Below are positions 513 through 11,822 of a DNA stretch of 13,402 bases, piece after piece. Within the stretch, counting starts at the first letter, position 1; each line of letters begins with the position of its first letter. The position numbers and the translations under genes were made by a program. The stretch covers positions 1 through 13,402 of the forward strand of contig NVQY01000054.1 in the NCBI GenBank assembly GCA_002400675.1. Direction: 5' to 3'. The DNA comes from Paracoccaceae bacterium. GTDB taxonomy: Bacteria; Pseudomonadota; Alphaproteobacteria; Rhodobacterales; Rhodobacteraceae. Under the pieces are notes generated by a model. That model worked only from the letters and a program-made list of their open reading frames with translations, did not search any database and was not told where the DNA came from.

Positions 513-520
513 TTGTGAGT

Positions 521-2362
521 ATGCGTCGTTTTGCCGGGGCCATCGTTGCCCTTCCGTTTCTTGCCGCCGCCGTGTTTGCCCAAGAGGCCGATACGATCTT
601 TAGCGGGGCCGAAATCGTCACCATGAACCCCGATCAGCCACAGGCCCAGGCCGTGGCGGTCAAGGATGGCATCATCCTTGCTGTTGGCAACACAGATCAG
701 GTGGTCGCGGCGCACAAGGGCGCAGATACGCAGATCGTGGATGTGGCAGGCAAAACCCTTTTGCCGGGCTTTATCGACCCGCACAGCCATTTCATCAACG
801 CGCTTGGCATGTCGGTACAAGCCAATGTATCCGCACCGCCCGTCGGCCCGGCCAGCAACCCGACGGAAATAGTTGCCGAACTGAAACGATACTTCGACGG
901 CAAACCACGCGGCGCGGATCAGCTGTTCATGGGCTATGGCTATGACGAGAACCTGATGCCCGAGGGACAGCGGCTGACCCGTTACGACCTGGACAAGGAA
1001 TTTCCCGATACACCAGTGCTGATCATGCATGTGTCGCTGCACGGGGTGGTTCTGAACTCGGCGGCGATGGCGAAATACGGCATCGACGCGAACACCGAAA
1101 CACCCCCCGGCGGTGTGATCCTGCGGGTCGAAGGGTCCAATGAACCCGAAGGGCTGTTGATGGAAACCGCCTTTTTGCCGATCTTTGAACAGCTGCCGTC
1201 ACCGGGACCGGACGAGGTGAAACAGCAAATCCTTGACGGGCAGATGATCTATGCCCGCGCCGGTGTCACCACCGGATACGAAGGGGCGACCCATCTTTCC
1301 CAGCTGAATACCCTAAAGGATGCCGCCGATCAGGGTCTGTTGTTCATGGATGTCATCGCCCTGCCCTTTATCACCGATCTGGAAAAAACTCTGGCCGAAT
1401 ATCCGGTCGAAGAGTGGATGAAATACGACAACAACCTGAAGATCGGCGGCTGCAAGATCACCGAGGACGGATCGCCCCAAGGCAAGACCGCCTTTTTCAC
1501 CACGCCCTATCTGACCGGCGGCCCCTCGGGCGAGACCAACTGGAAGGGAGAGCCGACCTTTGCCCCGGAAATGTTCAACAAGATGGTCAAGACCTGCTAT
1601 GATTTGGGGGTCCAGCTTTATGTTCATACCAATGGCGATGCGGCTGGTGATCTGACGATCACCGCGCATGAACTGGCCGCCGCCGATGATCTGGACGCAG
1701 ACCGGCGCACGGTTGTGGTTCACAGCCAGTTCGTACGCACCGATCAGCTGGAGAAGTATGTCGAATACAACCTGATCCCATCGTTCTACACCGAACACAC
1801 GTTCTTTTTCTCTGCCGCCCACGAGGCCAATCGCGGACCAGAACAGACCGCCCGGCTCAGCCCGATGCGCGAAGCGATCGACATGGGGCTGAAGCCAACC
1901 AACCACACCGATTTCAACGTCGTGCCCATCGACCAGATGTTCGTGCTGTGGACCGCAGTGACCCGCAAGAACCGCAATGGCAGGGTGATCGGCCCGGACC
2001 AGCGGATCACCCCCTACGAGGCGCTTGAGGCCATTACCGTCAACGCCGCCTATCAGGCCTTCGAAGAGGACAGCAAGGGCAGTATCGAGATTGGCAAACG
2101 GGCCGATCTGGTGGTGCTGGACGCCAACCCGCTGACGGTCGAGCCGGACGCACTTAAGGATATTACAGTGTTGCGCACCATCAAGGACGGCAAGACGATC
2201 TATGCCGCGACCCAGACGGCCAACCCGGCAGCAACCTTTTGCGTGGAAAGCGGCGGCACTTACGAAACCCGTGATTCCGACGCCGGGGCAATCGGCATCT
2301 GCATCCTGGCCGATGGCACCGAAGTTGACGCCTGGGCGTATTTCCGCGCTCAGAAATCCTGA
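521..2362 (+). CDS. Exported amidohydrolase (YtcJ-like, Amidohydro_3) with C-terminal DUF333-like domain
   Basis: This 613-residue protein is a metal-dependent hydrolase of the amidohydrolase superfamily. Residues 1-20 form a signal peptide (MRR, a hydrophobic core, then AVFA before QE), so the enzyme should act in the periplasm. Metal-site landmarks of the family are in order: PHSH with His88 and His90; Lys312 in KITEDGS, the candidate bridging lysine; His369 in VHTNGD; His401 in HSQF; and Asp464 in NHTDF. The usual closing segment, GSIEIGKRADLVVLD, is near 520-534. After about residue 567 a further 45 residues (NPAATFCVESGG, then GICILADGTEVDAW) match the pattern of DUF333, normally a small stand-alone periplasmic domain. 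The start is ATG 521 with AGGAG at 508-512. YtcJ-type enzymes have diverse amide or imine substrates, so none is assigned. It lies on the opposite strand from the cyanophycin genes, separated from them by the tRNA and cold-shock genes, and a link is not evident. Confidence 0.88.
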   Translation: MRRFAGAIVALPFLAAAVFAQEADTIFSGAEIVTMNPDQPQAQAVAVKDGIILAVGNTDQVVAAHKGADTQIVDVAGKTLLPGFIDPHSHFINALGMSVQANVSAPPVGPASNPTEIVAELKRYFDGKPRGADQLFMGYGYDENLMPEGQRLTRYDLDKEFPDTPVLIMHVSLHGVVLNSAAMAKYGIDANTETPPGGVILRVEGSNEPEGLLMETAFLPIFEQLPSPGPDEVKQQILDGQMIYARAGVTTGYEGATHLSQLNTLKDAADQGLLFMDVIALPFITDLEKTLAEYPVEEWMKYDNNLKIGGCKITEDGSPQGKTAFFTTPYLTGGPSGETNWKGEPTFAPEMFNKMVKTCYDLGVQLYVHTNGDAAGDLTITAHELAAADDLDADRRTVVVHSQFVRTDQLEKYVEYNLIPSFYTEHTFFFSAAHEANRGPEQTARLSPMREAIDMGLKPTNHTDFNVVPIDQMFVLWTAVTRKNRNGRVIGPDQRITPYEALEAITVNAAYQAFEEDSKGSIEIGKRADLVVLDANPLTVEPDALKDITVLRTIKDGKTIYAATQTANPAATFCVESGGTYETRDSDAGAIGICILADGTEVDAWAYFRAQKS

Positions 2363-2435: not shown

Positions 2436-2509
2436 TGGAGCGGGCGGCGGGAATCGAACCCGCGTCATTAGCTTGGAAGGCTAAGGTCTTACCACTACAC
2501 AACGCCCGC
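2436..2509 (-). tRNA. tRNA-Gly (anticodon UCC)
   Basis: On the minus strand the acceptor stem GCGGGCG/CGCCCGC (2503-2509 with 2440-2446) closes a full cloverleaf. The anticodon loop CTTCCAA sits between TTAGC and GCTAA and gives anticodon UCC, which reads GGA and GGG. The T arm is CGGGTTCGATTCCCG. The discriminator base is U, as expected for bacterial tRNA-Gly, and the 3' CCA is encoded. A TTTTT run lies just beyond the 3' end and can end the transcript. The gene stands alone with its own likely promoter at 2523-2551. Confidence 0.96.
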
Positions 2510-3108: not shown

Positions 3109-4860
3109 TCAGGTTATCGGGTCCGATTGCTGCGCCAGCAGATCAAACACCGCGTCCCGTTCGGCCAGCACCAGCAACAGGGCCACGTCGCCCGGTTGCA
3201 GCAGCGCCAGTATCCGGCGCACCCCCGCCAGAGGCGAGTCAGCCGACAGAATCTGATCTGGGCGCATGCCGTTTGCCCGACAAGTTTCGCGGATAAGATC
3301 AGGGACGTCGCCCAACTCCCGCCCGCGCAGGTAATCCAGCAGTTCGCAGGCGACCAGAACGTCCGGCCCAAGGCTTAGCGCGGTTTGCGTCACGTCGCGG
3401 ATGTCGTCGTCTGACCGGTCGCCCGCGTGGCTTAGCAGGATCATCCGGCGCTTGGCCGGGATCGCCGACAAGGCGTCGGCCACGGCGGCGACGGAATGCG
3501 GGTTATGGGCGAAATCGACAAACACCCGCGCGCCGTTGACCGCAAATTCGTTGAACCGACCCGGGTTGTCGGTGGGGTCATTGTGGAACCCGGAAAGGCC
3601 CTTGCGAATGGCCGCATCGTTCAATCCCAGCGCCCGCGCACCGCAGGTGGCGGCAAGGGCGTTGGACACGTTGTATTGCGCGGCCCCGCCAAGGGTGATG
3701 GGGATATCGGCGATGGCGATCACGGCTGTGGTATCGCTGCCATCAAAGTACAGGATCTTGCCCTTGCCAGCCCATGCGCAGGGCTGATGCGCCGCGCGGG
3801 CCGTGGCAATCTGTGCATTGCCCGGATCAAGCGAGAACCAGCAGATGCGCGCCTCGGTCTGCGCCGCCTCGGCCACCACATAAGGGTCGTCAGCGTTCAG
3901 GATCAGCGCGCCACCGGGGGCCAGCGCGCGGTGCACGGCAAACTTGGCGCGGGCCAGTTCCGGCACCGTGTTGACCCCGTATTGACCAAGGTGATCGGCG
4001 GCCACGTTGGTAACGATGGCCGCACGCGCCGCGCGGGTGGGCAGGCCACGGCGCAGGATGCCGCCACGTGCCACTTCGAGGCAGGCCACCTCAAGCCGTT
4101 GGTCGCGCAGCAGCAGGCGCGCGCCCCCCGGACCGGAATAATCGCCACGATCCAGCACATCGTCGCCAACCCGGACAAAATCGGTCGAAGTCAGCCCCGA
4201 CACCTTGCCCGCCGCCTTGCCAATCGCCGCCAGCAGGCGGGTTGTGGTCGTCTTGCCATTGGTGCCGGTGATCAGGGCGACGGGGACGTTGTGCAGGCGG
4301 TCCCAGTCCACATTGCCGGGCGTGGGGAGCGCGCCCACGGCCCACGTCTGAGACCCGACCCCATGGCCAACCGACAGCTCGTCATCGTCGCACAGCACCT
4401 CTGTGCCCCGCCGCGCGCCTTCGGTCAGCAGGGCGATCAACGGTGGATTGGCCTCGCGCGCCATGACGGCTGTCAGATCGGCGATCATCGCCGCGAAATC
4501 GCCGGATTGGCACCCCAGAAGGTCGCTCGCACAGAAATACCACGCGGTTTCGGCAACAAAAACAGCCGAGTACAGCTGATCCATCGGCGCGGACAGGGCA
4601 AGGTTGATGCCGCCTTCAAAACCCCGCGCATTCAGGTGTTGATCGCCCCAGCCGACCGCATCCAGCACCAGACGCGCATGTTTATGCCACGCTGCGGTGA
4701 TCTTGTCCGCCTCCATATCCGAGGCAACCTGAACCACCGCGCCGGGATGGTCCCACAACAGGCCGGGACCGGTCAGGCGGCGGCAATCCTCGACCTTAAG
4801 GCCCGGCGATGTCGGATAGTCGATGCTCAGGGCGTCTTCGATGTCCTCAATCGGATCCAT
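3109..4860 (-). CDS. CphA-like Mur ligase without an ATP-grasp domain
   Basis: This 583-residue protein has a full Mur-ligase module like the C-terminal half of cyanophycin synthetase. It shows the P-loop GTNGKTTT (199-206), EVARGG (262-267), ADHLGQYG (288-295), DFAHNP (449-454) and GDRSDDD (480-486), so it looks catalytically competent for an ATP-dependent amino-acid ligation. In CphA the Mur module adds the basic residue (Arg) to the beta-carboxyl of Asp. The ATP-grasp domain, which extends the Asp backbone, is absent. Residues 1-190 are not recognised, except that VGHGVGSQTW (164-173) resembles the FGHGKYQQRIQ segment just before the ATP-grasp domain of the neighbouring CphA. It may therefore descend from a CphA that lost that domain. 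It begins 3 bp after the CphA stop with only a weak Shine-Dalgarno sequence, which suggests translational coupling. It may be an accessory or alternative side-chain ligase, or a CphA partner. The exact role is not known to me. Confidence 0.85.
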   Translation of the reverse strand: MDPIEDIEDALSIDYPTSPGLKVEDCRRLTGPGLLWDHPGAVVQVASDMEADKITAAWHKHARLVLDAVGWGDQHLNARGFEGGINLALSAPMDQLYSAVFVAETAWYFCASDLLGCQSGDFAAMIADLTAVMAREANPPLIALLTEGARRGTEVLCDDDELSVGHGVGSQTWAVGALPTPGNVDWDRLHNVPVALITGTNGKTTTTRLLAAIGKAAGKVSGLTSTDFVRVGDDVLDRGDYSGPGGARLLLRDQRLEVACLEVARGGILRRGLPTRAARAAIVTNVAADHLGQYGVNTVPELARAKFAVHRALAPGGALILNADDPYVVAEAAQTEARICWFSLDPGNAQIATARAAHQPCAWAGKGKILYFDGSDTTAVIAIADIPITLGGAAQYNVSNALAATCGARALGLNDAAIRKGLSGFHNDPTDNPGRFNEFAVNGARVFVDFAHNPHSVAAVADALSAIPAKRRMILLSHAGDRSDDDIRDVTQTALSLGPDVLVACELLDYLRGRELGDVPDLIRETCRANGMRPDQILSADSPLAGVRRILALLQPGDVALLLVLAERDAVFDLLAQQSDPIT

Positions 4861-4863
4861 CGC

Positions 4864-7665
4864 CTAGTCACCGTCTTCGTCGGTATTACGCGCCAACCGC
4901 ACACCGCGTTCGTCACGAATAAGCGTCTCGCCTTCGGTCTCAAAATCCCCGACCAGCGGTGATTTGCTTTGCGTTTCTGTCGGTTTGACTGGATTTTCAC
5001 GCTCTTCGTCCGACCGAAAATGCACGACCTGTTTCCAGCACCGCGCCGAGTTGTCGCCGAATATCACCAGCAGATCGCCGTCCTGCGCCATTTCCAACGC
5101 GCTATCAATCGCCGTCACCTCGTCGGCAATCATGGTGATGGCGTCCTCGGAAACGCCGTGATGGATCAAACCGGCGCGCAACATATCGGGGATTTCATTG
5201 TCGCCGCGCCCGCGCCGGTTGTCGTCGGCCTTGCAGATGTAATGGTCGAAATGCCCGGCCAGAATGCGGGTCGCCTCGAACACGTCCTCGTCGCGGCGAT
5301 CCCCCGGCACGGCCACCACCAACAGACGCCGGCCGGTCACATCCATCCGGTCGGCCAGATCGGCAATCGCGCCAAAGGCCGCCGGGTTATGGGCGTAATC
5401 CAGCAGCACCTTGAAGGCGTGTTCGTCGTAAACATTTGTGCGCCCCGGGGCCTGAAAGAAACTGGTGTCAAAGGTGCGCAACCCATGGCGGATATTGTCC
5501 AGATCGACCCCGAAACAGAACGACATGGCGGTGGCAAACATGGCGTTCTGCACGTTATACAGCGCCTTGCCCTCAAGCGTCGCAGGCACCAGATGCGACC
5601 ACAGCACCGGCATGTGCATGCCGTTGTGATAGATGGTGATCATGTCGCCGTTCATGCCTTTTTCCAGCACCACGGCGTGGCCACCGGCCTTGATATGTTC
5701 CTTAACCAGCGCATGATCGGCGTTCATGGTGATATAGCAGATCGACTGCGCCTGACAGAAATCCGCCATCCGCAAACAGTGGATGTCGTCGGCGTTCAGC
5801 ACCACGGTATCGGTGGCCGATTCCACCACCACCCGCTTGACCACGGCCAGTTCTTCGACCGTGTTGATGCCGCGCAGGCCCAGATGATCGGCGGTGACAT
5901 TGAGACAAGCGGCAACGTTTGAGCTGGAATAGCCAAGACCCGAGCGTACCAGCCCACCGCGCGCGGTTTCCATCACCGCGAAATCCACCGAAGGGTCACG
6001 CAGGACGATGTGGGCTGATTTTGGACCGGTCATGTCGCCTTTGACCGACAGCTTGCCATCCACATAGACCCCGTCGGTCGAGGTCATGCCAACCGTCTGG
6101 CCCGATGTTTTCATGATATGCGCCAGCATCCGCGAGGTCGTGGTTTTGCCATTGGTGCCGGTGATTGCGGCGATGGGAATGCGCTTTTCAGTGCCGACCG
6201 GGAACAGCATGTCCATCACCGCCCCGGCCACGTCGCGCGGAATGCCCTCGGACGGGGCGACGTGCATGCGAAAGCCCGGCGCGGCGTTGACTTCGACGAT
6301 GGCGCCGCCGATTTCCTTGTAGGATCTTGTGATGTCGTCGATCAGGAAATCCACCCCGCCCACGTCCAGCCCAACGGCCATGATCGCGCGTTCGGCCATG
6401 TCGCGGTTGTCGGGATGCACCACATCCGTCATGTCAATCGCCGTGCCCCCGGTCGACAGGTTGGCGGTTGAGCGCAGGTACAGGATTTGCCCCTCCGGCA
6501 GCACGGTTTCTTCGGTGACGCCGGCCTCTTCCATCAACCGATGCGCCTGATTGTCCAGTTCAAGATTGGTCAGCACCTTTTCATGGCCGATACCCCGGCG
6601 CGGGTCGCTGTTCACTTCGTCGATCAGTTCGGCGATGGATTGCTTGCCATCGCCGCGCACATGGCCGGGCACCCGTTTGGCCACCGCGACCAGCTTGTTA
6701 TCCACCACCAACATACGGTGATCAAAGCCGGTGACAAAGCTTTCCACCAGAATGGCGCGGCTTTTGGAATGGGCGCGGGCCTCTGCAAAGGCCACTTCGA
6801 CCTCGTCGTCGGTGTTGAGATTGATCGACACGCCGCGCCCGTGGTTGGCGTCCAGTGGTTTCAGGACAACCGGGTGACCGATACGGCGCGCGGCGCGCAT
6901 GGCTTCGCGCGGGGAATAGACCATGGATTGCAGTGGCACCGGCAGGCCAAGGTCGCTCATCAGGTTGTGGGTGTCTTCCTTGTCGCAGGAAATTTCCACG
7001 GCTATGTGACTGGTTTTACTGGTTATTGTCGCCTGAATGCGCTGTTGGTACTTGCCATGGCCGAACTGCACCAGGGAATATTCGTTGAGGCGAATCCACG
7101 GAATGTCGCGTTCTTCGGCCGCTGCCACAAGGGAACCGGTCGAGGGGCCAAATTCGCGGCGTTGGGCCGACAGGACAAAGGACTTCAGCTCCTCCTCCCA
7201 ATCAAACTCATCGTCGAATTCGTAACCGGTCTGCGCCTTGAGGTCCTCGGGCAGCAGATGCATCAACAACCGCAGCGCCAGCTTGCCGGCGGCCAGCCCC
7301 ACGTCGCGCTGACCATAGGCGTAGACCATGTTGTAATGGCCCTTGTCGCCGGTGCTGCGGGTCCGCCCGAATGTCACATCGGTCCCGGCGCGGCCTTGGA
7401 TCTCCAGCGCGCAATGTTCCATGATGTGGCCCATCCAGGTGCCGTCGCCTTCGCGCAGACGGCGGATAAAGCCGCCCGGTTCACGGTAGGAACAGCCGTG
7501 TTCGCGCAGACCCGGCAAGGCGTCGATCAGGGTGTCGATAAAGGCGTCGCCAATGCGCGCTGACGGCCAATCCTCTAACGCCCCCAGATCGACCACATGG
7601 CGGATGACAGGAAAGCTGGCCCAGACATTTGGGCCGACAAAGACATTGGTCGCGACGATTTTCAT
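4864..7665 (-). CDS. cphA: Cyanophycin synthetase
   Basis: This 933-residue cytoplasmic enzyme polymerises L-Asp and L-Arg into cyanophycin using ATP. Three parts are visible. The N-domain (about 1-160) contains HIMEH (80-84), an HxxEH motif matching the zinc-binding, primer-making site described in some CphA1 enzymes. The ATP-grasp domain (about 200-490) makes the Asp backbone: FGHGKYQQRIQ at 201-211, Lys269 in KPLDANHGRGV, and EVNAAPGFR (458-466). The Mur-ligase domain (about 495-885) attaches Arg: P-loop GTNGKTTT (503-510), ETARGG (566-571), ADHLG (592-596), DYAHNP (756-761) and GDRRDED (789-795). It is slightly longer than the usual roughly 870-900 residues because of an acidic tail of about 48 residues after 885. 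The start is ATG 7665 with AAAGGG 8 bases upstream (7674-7679). It is flanked by CphB upstream and a Mur paralogue 3 bp downstream. A lysine-accepting or otherwise altered specificity cannot be excluded. Confidence 0.95.
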   Translation of the reverse strand: MKIVATNVFVGPNVWASFPVIRHVVDLGALEDWPSARIGDAFIDTLIDALPGLREHGCSYREPGGFIRRLREGDGTWMGHIMEHCALEIQGRAGTDVTFGRTRSTGDKGHYNMVYAYGQRDVGLAAGKLALRLLMHLLPEDLKAQTGYEFDDEFDWEEELKSFVLSAQRREFGPSTGSLVAAAEERDIPWIRLNEYSLVQFGHGKYQQRIQATITSKTSHIAVEISCDKEDTHNLMSDLGLPVPLQSMVYSPREAMRAARRIGHPVVLKPLDANHGRGVSINLNTDDEVEVAFAEARAHSKSRAILVESFVTGFDHRMLVVDNKLVAVAKRVPGHVRGDGKQSIAELIDEVNSDPRRGIGHEKVLTNLELDNQAHRLMEEAGVTEETVLPEGQILYLRSTANLSTGGTAIDMTDVVHPDNRDMAERAIMAVGLDVGGVDFLIDDITRSYKEIGGAIVEVNAAPGFRMHVAPSEGIPRDVAGAVMDMLFPVGTEKRIPIAAITGTNGKTTTSRMLAHIMKTSGQTVGMTSTDGVYVDGKLSVKGDMTGPKSAHIVLRDPSVDFAVMETARGGLVRSGLGYSSSNVAACLNVTADHLGLRGINTVEELAVVKRVVVESATDTVVLNADDIHCLRMADFCQAQSICYITMNADHALVKEHIKAGGHAVVLEKGMNGDMITIYHNGMHMPVLWSHLVPATLEGKALYNVQNAMFATAMSFCFGVDLDNIRHGLRTFDTSFFQAPGRTNVYDEHAFKVLLDYAHNPAAFGAIADLADRMDVTGRRLLVVAVPGDRRDEDVFEATRILAGHFDHYICKADDNRRGRGDNEIPDMLRAGLIHHGVSEDAITMIADEVTAIDSALEMAQDGDLLVIFGDNSARCWKQVVHFRSDEERENPVKPTETQSKSPLVGDFETEGETLIRDERGVRLARNTDEDGD

Positions 7666-7729: not shown

Positions 7730-8584
7730 TCAGGCAGGTAAAGAGCAAAAACCTGCATGTTCGTCGGGCGGAAACGCGTGACGGCTGGTCAGATCATAAC
7801 GGCAGCCCTGCCCCATCACGTCCAAACGCAACCCCAACAGGCTAAGCGCCTCGCCAGTGCCCGCGTCCCACATCGACGAATGGGTCAGGTGGCTGGCATC
7901 AACCACGGTGACCGCCCCACTGCCGACGACTTCGAACACGTTGTCGGGACCGATAAAGGCACCGGTGTCCTCGTCAATTCCGAGGCCAATCAGGAACGGA
8001 TTGAACGAGGAGGCGGTCAACAGCCGCCCCAAGCGGTTCCGCTGGGTGAAATGCTGATCAATGATCACCGCGTTGGTCAGGCCCAATCCCGGCGCAAGAT
8101 TGATGTTGCCCTCGGCGGGGGCGGAATTGCCCGGACCGCCGGCGATCATATGTTCCGACATCACCGACGCCCCCGCAGAAGTGCCCGCGACCGGCACCCC
8201 GGCGGCGTTCTGGCGGCGTATCTTCTGGGCCACAAGCGTACCGCCCAGGATGGTGGACAGGCGCAGTTGATTGCCGCCGGTCAGAAAGATGCCGGTGGCA
8301 CGGTCCAGCATGTCGGCAAAGGCCGGATTGTCGCAATCGGCGCGTTGGGTGATGGGCAGGAATTCGACCCGCCCCGCGCCCAGTTCGGTGAAGATACGGT
8401 TGTAATCGGGCCCGGTTTCCTCAAGCCGCGATGCGGTTGGGATGACGATGATATCGGCGTCGCCGTCGCCCGACAATTCCACGAATTTGCGGTGGATCGC
8501 CATGTCCTTGACCCGGTCCTCGCCGCCGCCAATGGGGATGATGAACCCGCGCGGGGTGTCTTCGGATACGGGGGCTGGGCACAT
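7730..8584 (-). CDS. cphB: Cyanophycinase (peptidase family S51)
   Basis: This 284-residue serine exopeptidase degrades cyanophycin to beta-Asp-Arg dipeptides. The S51 signatures are IPIGGGED (16-23), FLTGGNQLRL (100-109), the nucleophile elbow GTSAGAS with Ser136, DQHF with His178, and GIDEDTG with Glu205. The intervals of 42 and 27 residues equal those of the Ser-His-Glu triad known for Synechocystis CphB (132, 174, 201, recalled from memory). There is no signal peptide, so this is the intracellular CphB type and not the secreted CphE type. The Shine-Dalgarno sequence before ATG 8584 is poor, so expression may depend on coupling to the upstream dipeptidase gene 44 bp away. CphA follows after 64 bp, so synthesis and breakdown enzymes are probably transcribed together. 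Confidence 0.93.
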   Translation of the reverse strand: MCPAPVSEDTPRGFIIPIGGGEDRVKDMAIHRKFVELSGDGDADIIVIPTASRLEETGPDYNRIFTELGAGRVEFLPITQRADCDNPAFADMLDRATGIFLTGGNQLRLSTILGGTLVAQKIRRQNAAGVPVAGTSAGASVMSEHMIAGGPGNSAPAEGNINLAPGLGLTNAVIIDQHFTQRNRLGRLLTASSFNPFLIGLGIDEDTGAFIGPDNVFEVVGSGAVTVVDASHLTHSSMWDAGTGEALSLLGLRLDVMGQGCRYDLTSRHAFPPDEHAGFCSLPA

Positions 8585-8628: not shown

Positions 8629-9798
8629 TTACGCCTCTGCTTCAAAGGTTCCCAGAACAATCGCCTTCTGGTCGCGCACATGCCAGCGTCCCAGTGCCAT
8701 CACATCGCGGATTTGCCCCGTGTCACTGATCACCAGCAGGTCGGCATCCTTGCCGATCGCCAATCGCCCCTTGTGGTGCAGTTTCAGCAAATCGGCGACA
8801 TTCGACGTCAGCATCGGCAGCGCTGCATCCATCGCCACCCCCTGCGCCAAAAGCACCTGCAAGGTTTCCGGCAGGGTCGCCGACAGGCCGACCCCAATGC
8901 GGGTCAGATTGCCCTGTCTGTCGAACGCGGGCAGACACCCGCCGCCGTCAGAACTGACCGTCAGGCGGTCGGCAGGAAGGGCGCGCGCGGTGTATTCCAG
9001 ATAAGCCTCCGCCGCCGAGACCCCCGGTTCCACGTGGCCGGCGGGAAAGGCGGTCAGGTCAATGTAACAGCCATATTCAGTCAGCGACAGTGCCTCTTGG
9101 AACAGCGGTTTGTTGCGGTTCACATGGGTTGGATTGAACACGCGGGCAGGAATTTCGCAAGTCTCCAACGCGGCGCGCAGCAGGGCCAGACGCCGCTCCC
9201 CGTCGCCCAGATGGCAATGCACGATGCCCGCCTTGCCGGTCATCATACCGCCCACATAAGCGTCAGAGGCAATGCGCAGGAATTCATCCAGCGTCGGCTG
9301 GCTGGACCGGTGATCCGACAGCGCCAACTCGCCCACGCCAATGATCGGGTCGACAAAGGCGATGTCGCTGCGTACCGACCCGGTCAGGGTGGTCAGCGGC
9401 ACATGATAGCCGCCCGTATGGCACCACGCCGACAGCCCTTCTTCGCGCAGGCCATAGCATTGGGTCACCAGCGTCTGGGTGTTGCGGGTCACGTCGTCGG
9501 TGCCCAACACGCCAACCACGGACGTCACCCCGGCAAGGGTAAACGCGCTAAGCCCTACCGGCGGCACCCGGCTGGCCGGGCCGGTTTCGCCCCCGCCCCC
9601 GGTGACATGCGCGTGCTGGTCGATGAAACCGGGCACAACGCAGGCCCCATCCGCGTCGATAACCAACACCTCAAGACAGGGATCAAGGGTGGGCACTTCT
9701 GGCCCGAGATAGGCGATTTTCCCGCCTGCGATCAGGATGTTGCACAGACCAAGCGGCGCGGGCGCATAGGTGTTCGCGTTACGAATCAGTGTCAGCAT
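8629..9798 (-). CDS. iadA: Isoaspartyl (beta-aspartyl) dipeptidase, M38 family
   Basis: This 389-residue zinc amidohydrolase hydrolyses beta-aspartyl dipeptides. Next to cphB it fits the last step of cyanophycin breakdown, beta-Asp-Arg to Asp and Arg. Landmarks equivalent to E. coli IadA are present: QHAH (His62, His64), Glu71, GGYHVP (Tyr131), SDHR (Arg164), HCHLGD (His196), PTHVNRN (His225, Arg228) and SSDG (Asp284). The residue aligned with the carboxylated metal-bridging lysine (Lys162 in E. coli) is Glu157, in GVGELALSDHR, so a glutamate probably bridges the two metals. The frame is open 19 codons further upstream, but ATG 9798 is preferred because AAGAGG (9804-9809) precedes it at 5 bases and the protein then starts MLTLIRN, like its homologues. 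There is no signal peptide. Confidence 0.92.
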   Translation of the reverse strand: MLTLIRNANTYAPAPLGLCNILIAGGKIAYLGPEVPTLDPCLEVLVIDADGACVVPGFIDQHAHVTGGGGETGPASRVPPVGLSAFTLAGVTSVVGVLGTDDVTRNTQTLVTQCYGLREEGLSAWCHTGGYHVPLTTLTGSVRSDIAFVDPIIGVGELALSDHRSSQPTLDEFLRIASDAYVGGMMTGKAGIVHCHLGDGERRLALLRAALETCEIPARVFNPTHVNRNKPLFQEALSLTEYGCYIDLTAFPAGHVEPGVSAAEAYLEYTARALPADRLTVSSDGGGCLPAFDRQGNLTRIGVGLSATLPETLQVLLAQGVAMDAALPMLTSNVADLLKLHHKGRLAIGKDADLLVISDTGQIRDVMALGRWHVRDQKAIVLGTFEAEA

Positions 9799-9856
9799 TA
9801 CGGCCTCTTGCGATCGTGGTGTTCCATGTGTTCCAGGCGCGCGCGGGCCTGCCACG

Positions 9857-10669
9857 TCAGTTCAGGTCGATCTTGAGGCCAATGTACGGCCCGTGCTGCA
9901 CCGTGTCATAGGCGAACAATCCACCGGGTTGGGTGGTGCTGTAATCGACGCTGAAATAGCGGTAGCCAAAGGAAAGCGAAGTCCTCTCCCACGGGCGATA
10001 ATCGAACCCAACGGCGGCCGCGACCTGCAAATCATTGCCACCAACCCCGAACCCGCCCAGTTCCAGCGAGGCAACCGTGGTCCAGCGGTCATTCAGCCGC
10101 CACATGCCGCGCGCGCCGATCACCGGTTCGATCCAGGATTCGTCGCCGCCGGCGGAAATGCCGACCGCTGGGAATGGCGGCTGGATAGTCACAACCTGAC
10201 GGATCGAGTTGTACCGCGCGCCCGCTTGCAGATCTATCGAATAGGGCTGACCGTTGCCGGCATTGGTGCCATAGGCCACGCGATAAGCGCCCATGACAGA
10301 GAACCATTTCTGCCGATTGTTGACGCCGTAAAGCGTGCCCAGAACCGGGCCGGTGCCATTGGCGGAAATGCTGGTATAGCTGGCATCGACAATCACGCCC
10401 AGATTGCCATTCCACGCCTCGACCCGTCCGGCGGCGGCGAAGTCAAGCAAGTTCAGAACGTCGCTAAGGCTTAGGTCGAACGGCGCGGCATTCCCGTTTA
10501 CGGTCGAGGTGCCCGTGGTGCTGGTCGGCAGGAACCCGGTCAGGGTAAGGTTATAGCGCCAGCCATCTTCGGATTGACCCGGCAATGGCAACGGATCGGC
10601 GCTGGCTTGGGTCATGGGCAGGGTGGCAAGGCCAAGGCCAAGCGCAGCGGACAGTATTCTGGCGATCAT
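9857..10669 (-). CDS. Outer-membrane beta-barrel protein, function unknown
   Basis: This 270-residue protein begins with a signal peptide (MIARILSAALGLGLATL, then TQASA before DPLP; cleavage about residue 24). The rest alternates polar and hydrophobic residues in strand-length pieces, for example GWRYNLTLTGFLP near 36-48, GVIVDASYTSI near 91-101 and SLSFGYRYFSVDY near 231-243. It ends in GPYIGLKIDLN. This is the pattern of a small outer-membrane barrel of 8-12 strands, similar to OmpW/opacity-like families. No substrate is evident. ATG 10669 is chosen because GAGGA (10675-10679) precedes it at 5 bases and it gives a clean signal peptide; upstream in-frame ATGs lack such a site. It is the first gene of the minus-strand run leading into iadA-cphB-cphA, 58 bp before iadA. 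That hints at shared regulation, but a direct role in cyanophycin metabolism is inference only. Confidence 0.8.
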   Translation of the reverse strand: MIARILSAALGLGLATLPMTQASADPLPLPGQSEDGWRYNLTLTGFLPTSTTGTSTVNGNAAPFDLSLSDVLNLLDFAAAGRVEAWNGNLGVIVDASYTSISANGTGPVLGTLYGVNNRQKWFSVMGAYRVAYGTNAGNGQPYSIDLQAGARYNSIRQVVTIQPPFPAVGISAGGDESWIEPVIGARGMWRLNDRWTTVASLELGGFGVGGNDLQVAAAVGFDYRPWERTSLSFGYRYFSVDYSTTQPGGLFAYDTVQHGPYIGLKIDLN

Positions 10670-10701
10670 CAGAGTCCTCATGGGTTGGCAAACGGGAATC
10701 A

Positions 10702-10718
10702 GTCCGGTTTGGTCGGAC
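10702..10718. promoter_or_regulatory. Inverted repeat over the presumed transcription start (operator-like)
   Basis: GTCCG (10702-10706) and CGGAC (10714-10718) form a 5-bp inverted repeat with a 7-bp centre, just downstream of the -10 element at 10722-10727. A repressor bound here would block the start of the cyanophycin run. No regulator family is assigned, and a 5-bp half-site can occur by chance. Confidence 0.3.
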
Positions 10719-10721
10719 AAG

Positions 10722-10749
10722 ACTATACGCCCGTTGGCCCGGCACGCAA
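10722..10749 (-). promoter_or_regulatory. Likely promoter of the barrel protein-iadA-cphB-cphA run
   Basis: On the minus strand TTGCGT (10744-10749) and TATAGT (10722-10727) are 16 bp apart. The -10 element matches the consensus at five of six positions. It lies 52 bp before the ATG of the first gene, and no comparable promoter is seen in the short gaps within the run. Confidence 0.5.
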
Positions 10750-10786
10750 AGAGGGCATCCCAGCCCCCGTACCCCGCCAGTACATA

Positions 10787-10803
10787 TTGCCGGGCGCGGG
10801 CAA
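10787..10803. promoter_or_regulatory. Second 17-bp inverted repeat in the divergent promoter region
   Basis: TTGCC (10787-10791) and GGCAA (10799-10803) are separated by 7 bp, the same geometry as the repeat at 10702-10718 but with different half-sites. It lies 60 bp before the ureohydrolase ATG and upstream of the minus-strand -35 element, a position where an activator or a shared divergent regulator could bind. The evidence is symmetry only. Confidence 0.25.
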
Positions 10804-10862
10804 AAGGGTAAGGATGTGACCAACTGCAATACGCATCCACAAGATCAACAAGGGACCCAGGC

Positions 10863-11822
10863 ATGACCAGCAACTCTTACGATTCCGGGCGGTTGAACCT
10901 GCCGTTTGTCGGCATCTGCACCTTTGGCAAATACCCATACGTTCAGGACTGGGACGCGATTGACGCCGATGTGGCGGTGATGGGCGCGCCGTATGATTTC
11001 GGCTGCCAGTGGCGCAGCGGCGCGCGCATGGGACCACGGGCGATCCGCGAAGCCTCCACGCTGTTCTCGTTTGGCCACGCGGGGGCCTATGACTTTGAGG
11101 ATGACGTGACTTACCTGCCGGCGGAAACCACCCGGATTGTCGATATCGGTGACGCTGACATCATCCACACTGACACCGTGCAAAGCCATGCCAACATCGA
11201 ATTTGGCGTGCGCAAGATACTCGCCGCAGGGGCGTTGCCGGTGGTGATGGGCGGCGATCATTCAATCAATATCCCTTGCATCAATGCGTTCGACGACCAG
11301 GGTCCGATCCACGTGGTGCAGATTGACGCGCATCTGGATTTTGTCGATGAACGCCACGGGGTGCGCTTTGGTCATGGCAACCCGATGCGGCGGGCGGCGG
11401 AAAAGTCCTATGTCACGGGGCTTAGCCAGATTGGCATCCGCAACGTGTCGTCAACCGCGCGCGATGGCTACGAGGACGCGCGTGCCATGGGGTCGGACAT
11501 CCAGTCGGTGCGCCATGTGCGCGCACTGGGGATCGAGGGCATGCTGGCGCGTATTCCCAAAGGCGCGCGCTATTATGTGACGATCGACATCGACGCGTTT
11601 GATCCCTCTATCGCGCCGGGCACGGGCACCCCCAGCCACGGCGGGTTTCTGTATTACGAAGTGCTGGAACTGCTGGCGGGGCTGGCCAAACGCGGGACTA
11701 TTGTGGGCGTAGATCTGGTCGAAGTCGCGCCGGATTACGACCCCACCGGGTCCACCAGCACGTTGGCGGCGCAGGTCCTGATGAACCTGATTGGCCGCAT
11801 TCTGCATGCGCGATCCGCCTGA
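10863..11822 (+). CDS. Ureohydrolase, agmatinase/arginase family
   Basis: This 319-residue dimanganese enzyme hydrolyses a guanidino compound to urea and an amine. The metal ligands of the family are visible: GGDH (His133), DAHLD (Asp155, His157, Asp159) and DIDAFDP (Asp242, Asp244). Also present are the closing SPGTGTP-like segment APGTGTP (251-257) and Glu287 in GVDLVEVAP. The GARMGPRAIREAS motif (53-65) and the overall length fit the agmatinase (SpeB) branch better than arginase. Related enzymes act on guanidinobutyrate or guanidine, so the substrate is not fixed. Start ATG 10863 has AGGGA (10851-10855) 7 bases upstream. The gene diverges from the cyanophycin run and could process arginine-derived guanidino nitrogen after polymer breakdown. 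That link is inferred from position, and no arginine decarboxylase is present in the window. Confidence 0.88.
   Translation: MTSNSYDSGRLNLPFVGICTFGKYPYVQDWDAIDADVAVMGAPYDFGCQWRSGARMGPRAIREASTLFSFGHAGAYDFEDDVTYLPAETTRIVDIGDADIIHTDTVQSHANIEFGVRKILAAGALPVVMGGDHSINIPCINAFDDQGPIHVVQIDAHLDFVDERHGVRFGHGNPMRRAAEKSYVTGLSQIGIRNVSSTARDGYEDARAMGSDIQSVRHVRALGIEGMLARIPKGARYYVTIDIDAFDPSIAPGTGTPSHGGFLYYEVLELLAGLAKRGTIVGVDLVEVAPDYDPTGSTSTLAAQVLMNLIGRILHARSA

Follow-up and report, generated by a model that had tools for sequence, protein, structure and literature searches.

The window analysed here is a contig of 13,402 nucleotides (NVQY01000054.1, assembly GCA_002400675.1) from the incomplete genome (68% complete) of a Paracoccaceae bacterium. 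It carries a cyanophycin cluster in which the cyanophycin synthetase gene cphA (cphA1 below) is followed by a related gene that we call cphA'. The product, CphA', is an ancient paralogue of CphA that has neither the ATP-grasp (G) domain, which adds Asp, nor the peptidase site of the N domain, and that retains a complete side-chain-ligating Mur-ligase (M) domain. CphA' accompanies a particular CphA1 subfamily, whose conserved C-terminal tail favours a dedicated interaction between the two proteins, as judged from sequence comparisons.

Architecture, catalytic residues and pairing of CphA'

The reading frame of cphA' is intact and codes for 583 residues on the minus strand (3109–4860). As originally noted, its ATG lies 3 base pairs after the stop codon of cphA (4864–7665), which is on the same strand. 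The features of the pair are the following.

3109..4860, minus strand: cphA' (583 residues), a diverged CphA N domain fused directly to a complete M domain, without ATP-grasp
4366..4800, minus strand: N-domain-like region, residues 21–165 or so of CphA', without the HxxEH metallopeptidase motif (fold match, profile alignment)
4336..4503, minus strand: residues 120–175 or so of CphA', counterpart of the CphA stretch that precedes the ATP-grasp core, with no G domain after it (hhalign; exact borders inferred)
3172..4293, minus strand: M domain of CphA', residues 190–563 or so, with the P-loop GTNGKT, D289-H290, K306, D449-H452-N453 and R512
4864..7665, minus strand: cphA1 (933 residues), N, G and M domains, HxxEH kept (H80, E83, H84); TIGR02068 1134 bits, cut-off 850
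4867..5016, minus strand: C-terminal extension of CphA1, residues 884–933 or so, present in the CphA1 that are adjoined by CphA'
4867..4923, minus strand: conserved end of this extension, LIRDERGVRLARNTDEDGD-COOH; terminal Asp and Glu at -4 in 120/120 of the homologues listed

Pfam recognises Mur_ligase_M (197–406) and Mur_ligase_C (434–562) in CphA', and no ATP-grasp domain. The cyanophycin synthetase model TIGR02068 gives 337 bits, over the M domain only, and its cut-off of 850 is not reached; the best MurE model of NCBIfam gives 87.3 bits (cut-off 373) and the folC model TIGR01499 gives 46.9 bits (cut-off 162.65). These scores, all below the cut-offs, rule out that CphA' is a known Mur or folate ligase. 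The original prediction had described a CphA paralogue without ATP-grasp, with a complete Mur-ligase module including its P-loop and catalytic motifs; this is supported, and the folylpolyglutamate or peptidoglycan ligase that would have refuted it is not what CphA' is.

The M domains of 22 CphA', 22 paired CphA1 and 12 unpaired CphA1 were compared. Fourteen positions of the P-loop, of Mg/ATP binding and of catalysis are identical in 22/22 CphA', down to 31% identity; the Thr that follows the P-loop Lys is Ser in 7 of the 22. The Mur fold of CphA' is predicted confidently with the catalytic residues kept, as had been expected of a ligase. One of the residues kept, R512, is likely the carboxylate clamp, by analogy. 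The differences are elsewhere: D814 of CphA1, which is kept in 22/22 paired and 11/12 unpaired CphA1, is variable in CphA', R791 is replaced by Ser (18/22), D871 by Ser or Ala (20/22), and an invariant Glu, E506, stands opposite K812 of CphA1 when the profiles are aligned. By analogy with the amino-acid motif of MurE, we assume that these are the positions where the incoming amino acid would bind. Since the D814 position is not kept, this amino acid may not be Arg. In our reading, CphA' is a functional ligase that may use another amino acid than CphA1 does.

The CphA-like protein L092 (889 residues, genome G001), whose M domain lacks the P-loop pattern GTNGK[TS], was excluded from this comparison and from the tree described below. 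The same genome has a second, shorter CphA-like frame (788 residues).

The first 190 residues or so of CphA' had been considered as an unrecognised region that replaces the N domain and the ATP-grasp. The absence of the G domain stands, and residues 1–190 have no Pfam match, PF18921 included; when 13 N-terminal regions were scanned alone, only three families appeared, in one member each, with E values of 0.077–0.17. The other part of the claim does not stand, since in the predicted structure the region folds as a CphA N domain (fold match) and runs straight into the M domain. This rules out an unrelated N-terminal domain, although the sequence profiles alone are weak. The comparison of hidden Markov models that had been proposed for this region gives, with the larger alignments, a match to the CphA N domain that is colinear but weak (hhalign, E 3.6e-4 for a single comparison, probability 37%); four CphA rows that failed a pattern were left out of this N-domain profile. 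With smaller alignments, E is 0.0074 (probability 5%) for the N domain versus 0.026 (2%) for the G domain used as a control. The alignment of full-length CphA' with CphA covers the M domain alone, and the global mode of hhalign failed for the N region against the CphA N domain, larger alignments included, and against the G domain. The segment VGHGVGSQTW, which had been likened to the sequence just before the ATP-grasp domain of CphA, does align with FGHGKYQQRIQ of CphA (hhalign). As for the primer-making peptidase site HxxEH, no invariant His is found before residue 165, or before GHG, among 35 relatives of CphA'.

In a tree of M domains (midpoint root, with long-branch warnings from the program), CphA' forms one clade (100/99) and the partnered CphA1 form another (100/99); their internal branching is similar by eye. 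CphA' is not a recent copy of the neighbouring cphA, as its own deep clade indicates, subject to these warnings.

Relatives of CphA' with 92–48% identity occur in many genomes, a conservation beyond chance. Of 385 genomes sampled evenly across the host's class, 4 have CphA' and 6 have a CphA1 that exceeds the cut-off, including those 4. Among 256 genomes of the host's family, CphA' is present in 8, and the CphA N domain exceeds the cut-off in 12, including those 8. In one genus, CphA1 over cut-off is found in 16/54 genomes and CphA' in the same 16. Last, 229 genomes of the class of genome G708 contain three CphA', each directly beside CphA1, two of which are only 31% identical to that of the window. 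The samples share genomes G000, G154 and G427. CphA' without CphA1 was not found in the genomes sampled (class, family, genus, class of G708), consistent with the association that the original prediction proposed. Among plasmids, 4 records have a full-length CphA' and the same 4 carry a cphA matching to residue 933, while 14 other near-full cphA matches stop at residue 883–902, with no full-length CphA' in those records. Judged by their lengths, some contigs belong to two sets (L009/L082, L007/L162, L005/L165, and the plasmids H23/H24 and L150/L164).

The C-terminal tail of the partnered CphA1

The partnered CphA1 end with an extension of about 50–70 residues in 25/25 loci, in 3/3 distant loci, in 16/16 further cases (15 of the genus and 1 other) and in 2/2 plasmid records; these counts omit L111, which is cut by the contig end, and the CphA1 of genomes G957 and G895. 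The extension is absent from 14 CphA1 C-termini lacking an adjacent CphA' (7 + 6 + 1 across three comparisons), 8 of which come with a negative genome-wide search for CphA' and 6 of which were inspected at the locus or plasmid only.

Among the best 120 homologues of CphA1 (all of at least 77% identity, selected irrespective of partner), the last residue is Asp and the residue at -4 is Glu in 120/120, the residue at -2 is Ser, Gly or Ala in 120/120, and DxRGVxLA is present in 118, usually 8 residues from the end. The linker ahead of this motif is 17–60% conserved in nearly all columns, while the block LIRDERGVRLAR is at 92–100%. The C-termini of CphA' are variable, with 15 different last residues in 120, so that sequence closeness alone need not yield such an invariant end of CphA1. 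Moreover, the codons of the tail vary between species and the spacing of cphA1 and cphA' is 3 bases in the window and 53 in locus L011, so that the selection on the tail acts at the protein level. A ribosome-binding site as the source of the motif is ruled out by the same two observations.

The CphA1 of the three distant pairs end in DERGVRIARDEGD, DESGVRVVYHDDEEND and DESGVRVIFDEEDND; all retain the terminal Asp, and the remainder is looser. The CphA of A. baylyi (7lgm) ends with NDRGVMILPR before the tag, so that it shares the DRGV part and lacks the ExxD end; the DRGV part is thus older or more widespread than the ExxD end.

What CphA' may do for CphA1

How the synthesis of cyanophycin, a nitrogen-storage polymer, starts is an old question. 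One published answer is that primers are made by the N domain of CphA1, about 80% of which have the HxxEH primer-making peptidase site; according to the same source, the Asp just added at the C-terminus of the chain receives Arg on its side chain from the M domain of CphA1 (PMC9262961). Because the M domain loads a C-terminal Asp, a ligase of the M type could plausibly also accept the free C-terminal Asp of the CphA1 tail. CphA' is of this type and has no domain that adds to the backbone.

We tentatively propose, with a little less than even confidence, that CphA' is an active ATP-dependent ligase recruited to CphA1 by the tail and, with less certainty, that it uses the terminal Asp of the tail as acceptor. 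The tail would bring CphA' to CphA1, CphA' would put a first amino acid, probably a basic one, on the terminal Asp, and the loaded tail would be a protein-bound unit that CphA1 extends, so that the enzyme would prime itself. In the most developed form of the model, CphA' would load the side chain of the terminal Asp, and the polymer would lengthen while covalently attached to the tail, to be cut free later, perhaps by the HxxEH site in the N domain of CphA1; we consider such a self-primed polymerase unlikely. LysW and LysX follow a comparable logic: a dedicated ATP-dependent ligase loads the side chain of an acidic residue that invariably ends its partner protein. On the CphA1 side, such a residue is present (Asp, 120/120). 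LysX belongs to the ATP-grasp enzymes and LysW is a small carrier, unlike CphA' and CphA1; the parallel is drawn as an analogy only.

Several observations weigh against this proposal. The distant pairs keep the end of the tail only in part, with Gly or Asn at -2 and Asp at -4 in one of them, and A. baylyi CphA has the DRGV part without the ExxD end. The tail and the partner each mark one clade, so that their association is one evolutionary event that was kept, not many. The change at D814 means that the amino acid may not be Arg. In an AlphaFold2 model where the last 68 residues of CphA1 are tethered to CphA', the tail forms a low-confidence hairpin (predicted local distance difference test, pLDDT, below 50) and shows no sign of docking, in a setting where the tether blocks the free C-terminus and the tail is present in only 10/26 alignment rows. 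Last, HxxEH is kept in the paired CphA1 (12/12 rows), and a second route of priming is therefore not strictly needed.

Conserved C-terminal peptides are common docking signals. It may be that the tail only recruits CphA' into a mixed complex, where CphA' would load the side chains of the growing polymer in trans (with Arg, faster, or with Lys or another amino acid), the terminal Asp serving for recognition only. We consider this possible, if doubtful. It accounts for the same data on pairing and on the tail, it overlaps with the first, weaker half of our proposal, namely recruitment by the tail, and the variable D814 and the replacements of R791 and D871 near the putative amino-acid site fit the use of another amino acid. 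However, it does not account for the free Asp at the invariant end, which is the type of acceptor that the M domains of CphA1 use, and the tethered model, with the reservation made above, shows no docking.

The tail could also be a regulatory or structural trait of this CphA1 subfamily, unrelated to CphA'. The NDRGV near the end of A. baylyi CphA and the confounding of tail and partner on one clade speak for this reading. We consider it improbable, because neither A. baylyi CphA nor any of the 14 CphA1 C-termini without an adjacent CphA' has the ExxD end, and because tail and partner stay together down to 31% identity of CphA'.

Still less probable is a role in which CphA' joins free amino acids into beta-Asp-Arg or very short primers independently of the tail, as G-less proteins acting alone might do. 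A Legionella adelaidensis plasmid does have a G-less relative with N and M domains beside a cyanophycinase and an isoaspartyl peptidase, and no other CphA-like place at E 1e-10; yet this relative has an ordinary CphA N domain, unlike that of CphA', the search covered the plasmid only, no CphA' lacking a CphA1 turned up in the genomes sampled, and the tail is left unexplained. That CphA' only regulates CphA1 or serves it as a scaffold, with no catalysis of its own, as the lost peptidase motif of the N domain and some changed positions of the M domain might suggest, is very unlikely given the fourteen Mur positions kept in 22/22 sequences, including CphA' of 31% identity.

Gene neighbourhood, related systems and significance

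In the window, the genes of the minus strand follow the order iadA, cphB, cphA1 and cphA'. The two first are:

7730..8584, minus strand: cphB, cyanophycinase (TIGR02069, 246.8 bits)
8629..9855, minus strand: iadA, isoaspartyl dipeptidase (TIGR01975, 413.9 bits)

The 19 loci of cphA' are spread over Rhodobacterales genera, Hyphomicrobiales, Mesorhizobium and Gammaproteobacteria. cphA precedes cphA' in the 16/16 loci that are long enough to show it (L008, L016 and L020 are too short to reach cphA); of these 16, 15 also show cphB and 10 show iadA, several loci ending at contig borders. In one gammaproteobacterial metagenome-assembled genome the CphA' frame is split in two (L022, 4113–5541), by a frame change or an assembly error. 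On a Shinella plasmid, a Tn3 transposase and a recombinase adjoin the cphB-cphA-cphA' cluster (L166, 952–4676), which fits a transfer of the whole set.

Elsewhere in the window, an agmatinase/ureohydrolase family gene (10863–11822, plus strand; TIGR01230 176.3 bits, cut-off 174.3) lies beside the cyanophycin cluster and could consume arginine-derived products. Between it and iadA there is a frame of 338 residues (9857–10873, minus strand) with a TTG start and an 11-base overlap with the next frame on the opposite strand; it has no match in Pfam or NCBIfam and resembles by eye an outer-membrane protein. Beyond the 3' end of the cluster are an amidohydrolase with a C-terminal DUF333 domain (515–2362, plus strand) and a tRNA-Gly(tcc) (2436–2509, minus strand).

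CphA' and CphA1 (TIGR02068; PDB 7lg5, 7wae, 7lgm) have the same order of N and M folds, the same catalytic residues in M, and cphB and often iadA nearby. CphA' differs by the absence of the G domain and of HxxEH, by its changed putative amino-acid pocket and by its score (337 bits versus a cut-off of 850). The single active site of the cyanobacterial CphA2 is presumably the G site. Like CphA', CphA2 is a CphA paralogue without the peptidase motif of the N domain; it joins beta-Asp-Arg dipeptides at a single active site (PMC9262961, PMC10206079). CphA' differs from it in having no G domain. MurE, other Mur ligases and FolC share the Mur fold and its catalytic residues with CphA', with lower scores and a different N-terminal domain.

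Tandem cphA genes (L105–L109), which we take to be of the Cupriavidus H16 type, resemble the pair of the window in being two adjacent cphA-like genes. Their short protein (723–772 residues) has an N domain (PF18921) and a CphA match that extends to residue 735 at most and ends within the M domain, and their long neighbour has a weak N domain and no ExxD tail; the short and long CphA are perhaps a complementary pair. The G-less proteins of Legionella adelaidensis (622 residues) and Deinococcus deserti (724 residues), both annotated as "Mur ligase family protein", are like CphA' in that N is joined to M. By profile, the N domains of both belong with ordinary CphA (E 3e-52 or better), and the CphA' profile gives them marginal scores only. 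The G-less form thus seems to have arisen more than once, a view based on these N domains and not on a tree including the two proteins. The Legionella plasmid gene (L169, NZ_LR134428.1, 4563–6431) has kept HxxEH and is followed by the cyanophycinase and isoaspartyl peptidase genes. The Deinococcus gene (L168, NC_012528.1, 4173–6347) has no other cyanophycin gene annotated in its stretch; this strain has cphA on two other plasmids.

Our literature search, which covered titles and shown abstracts and left most subscription papers outside its coverage, returned no paper describing the architecture of CphA' or the tail of CphA1, and a term search in a survey of cph clusters gave no match for "Mur ligase" in the text that it reached (PMC10206079). 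Octadecabacter arcticus is reported to have a cyanophycin cluster, in an article that also distinguishes groups of cyanophycin ligases (PMC3646047). In plasmid records, CphA' is annotated as "Mur ligase family protein". We regard it as a variant within the CphA/Mur-ligase kind, which should work like an M domain and is by definition neither CphA1 nor CphA2.

The lack of any CphA' without CphA1 in the genomes sampled and the near-invariant free Asp that ends the tail suggest another mechanism for the start of cyanophycin synthesis or for the loading of the polymer. The "Mur ligase family protein" that NCBI annotates beside cphA is a distinct family, which is of use for polymer engineering, and the C-terminal motif of CphA1 provides a simple annotation test for the CphA1–CphA' pair.
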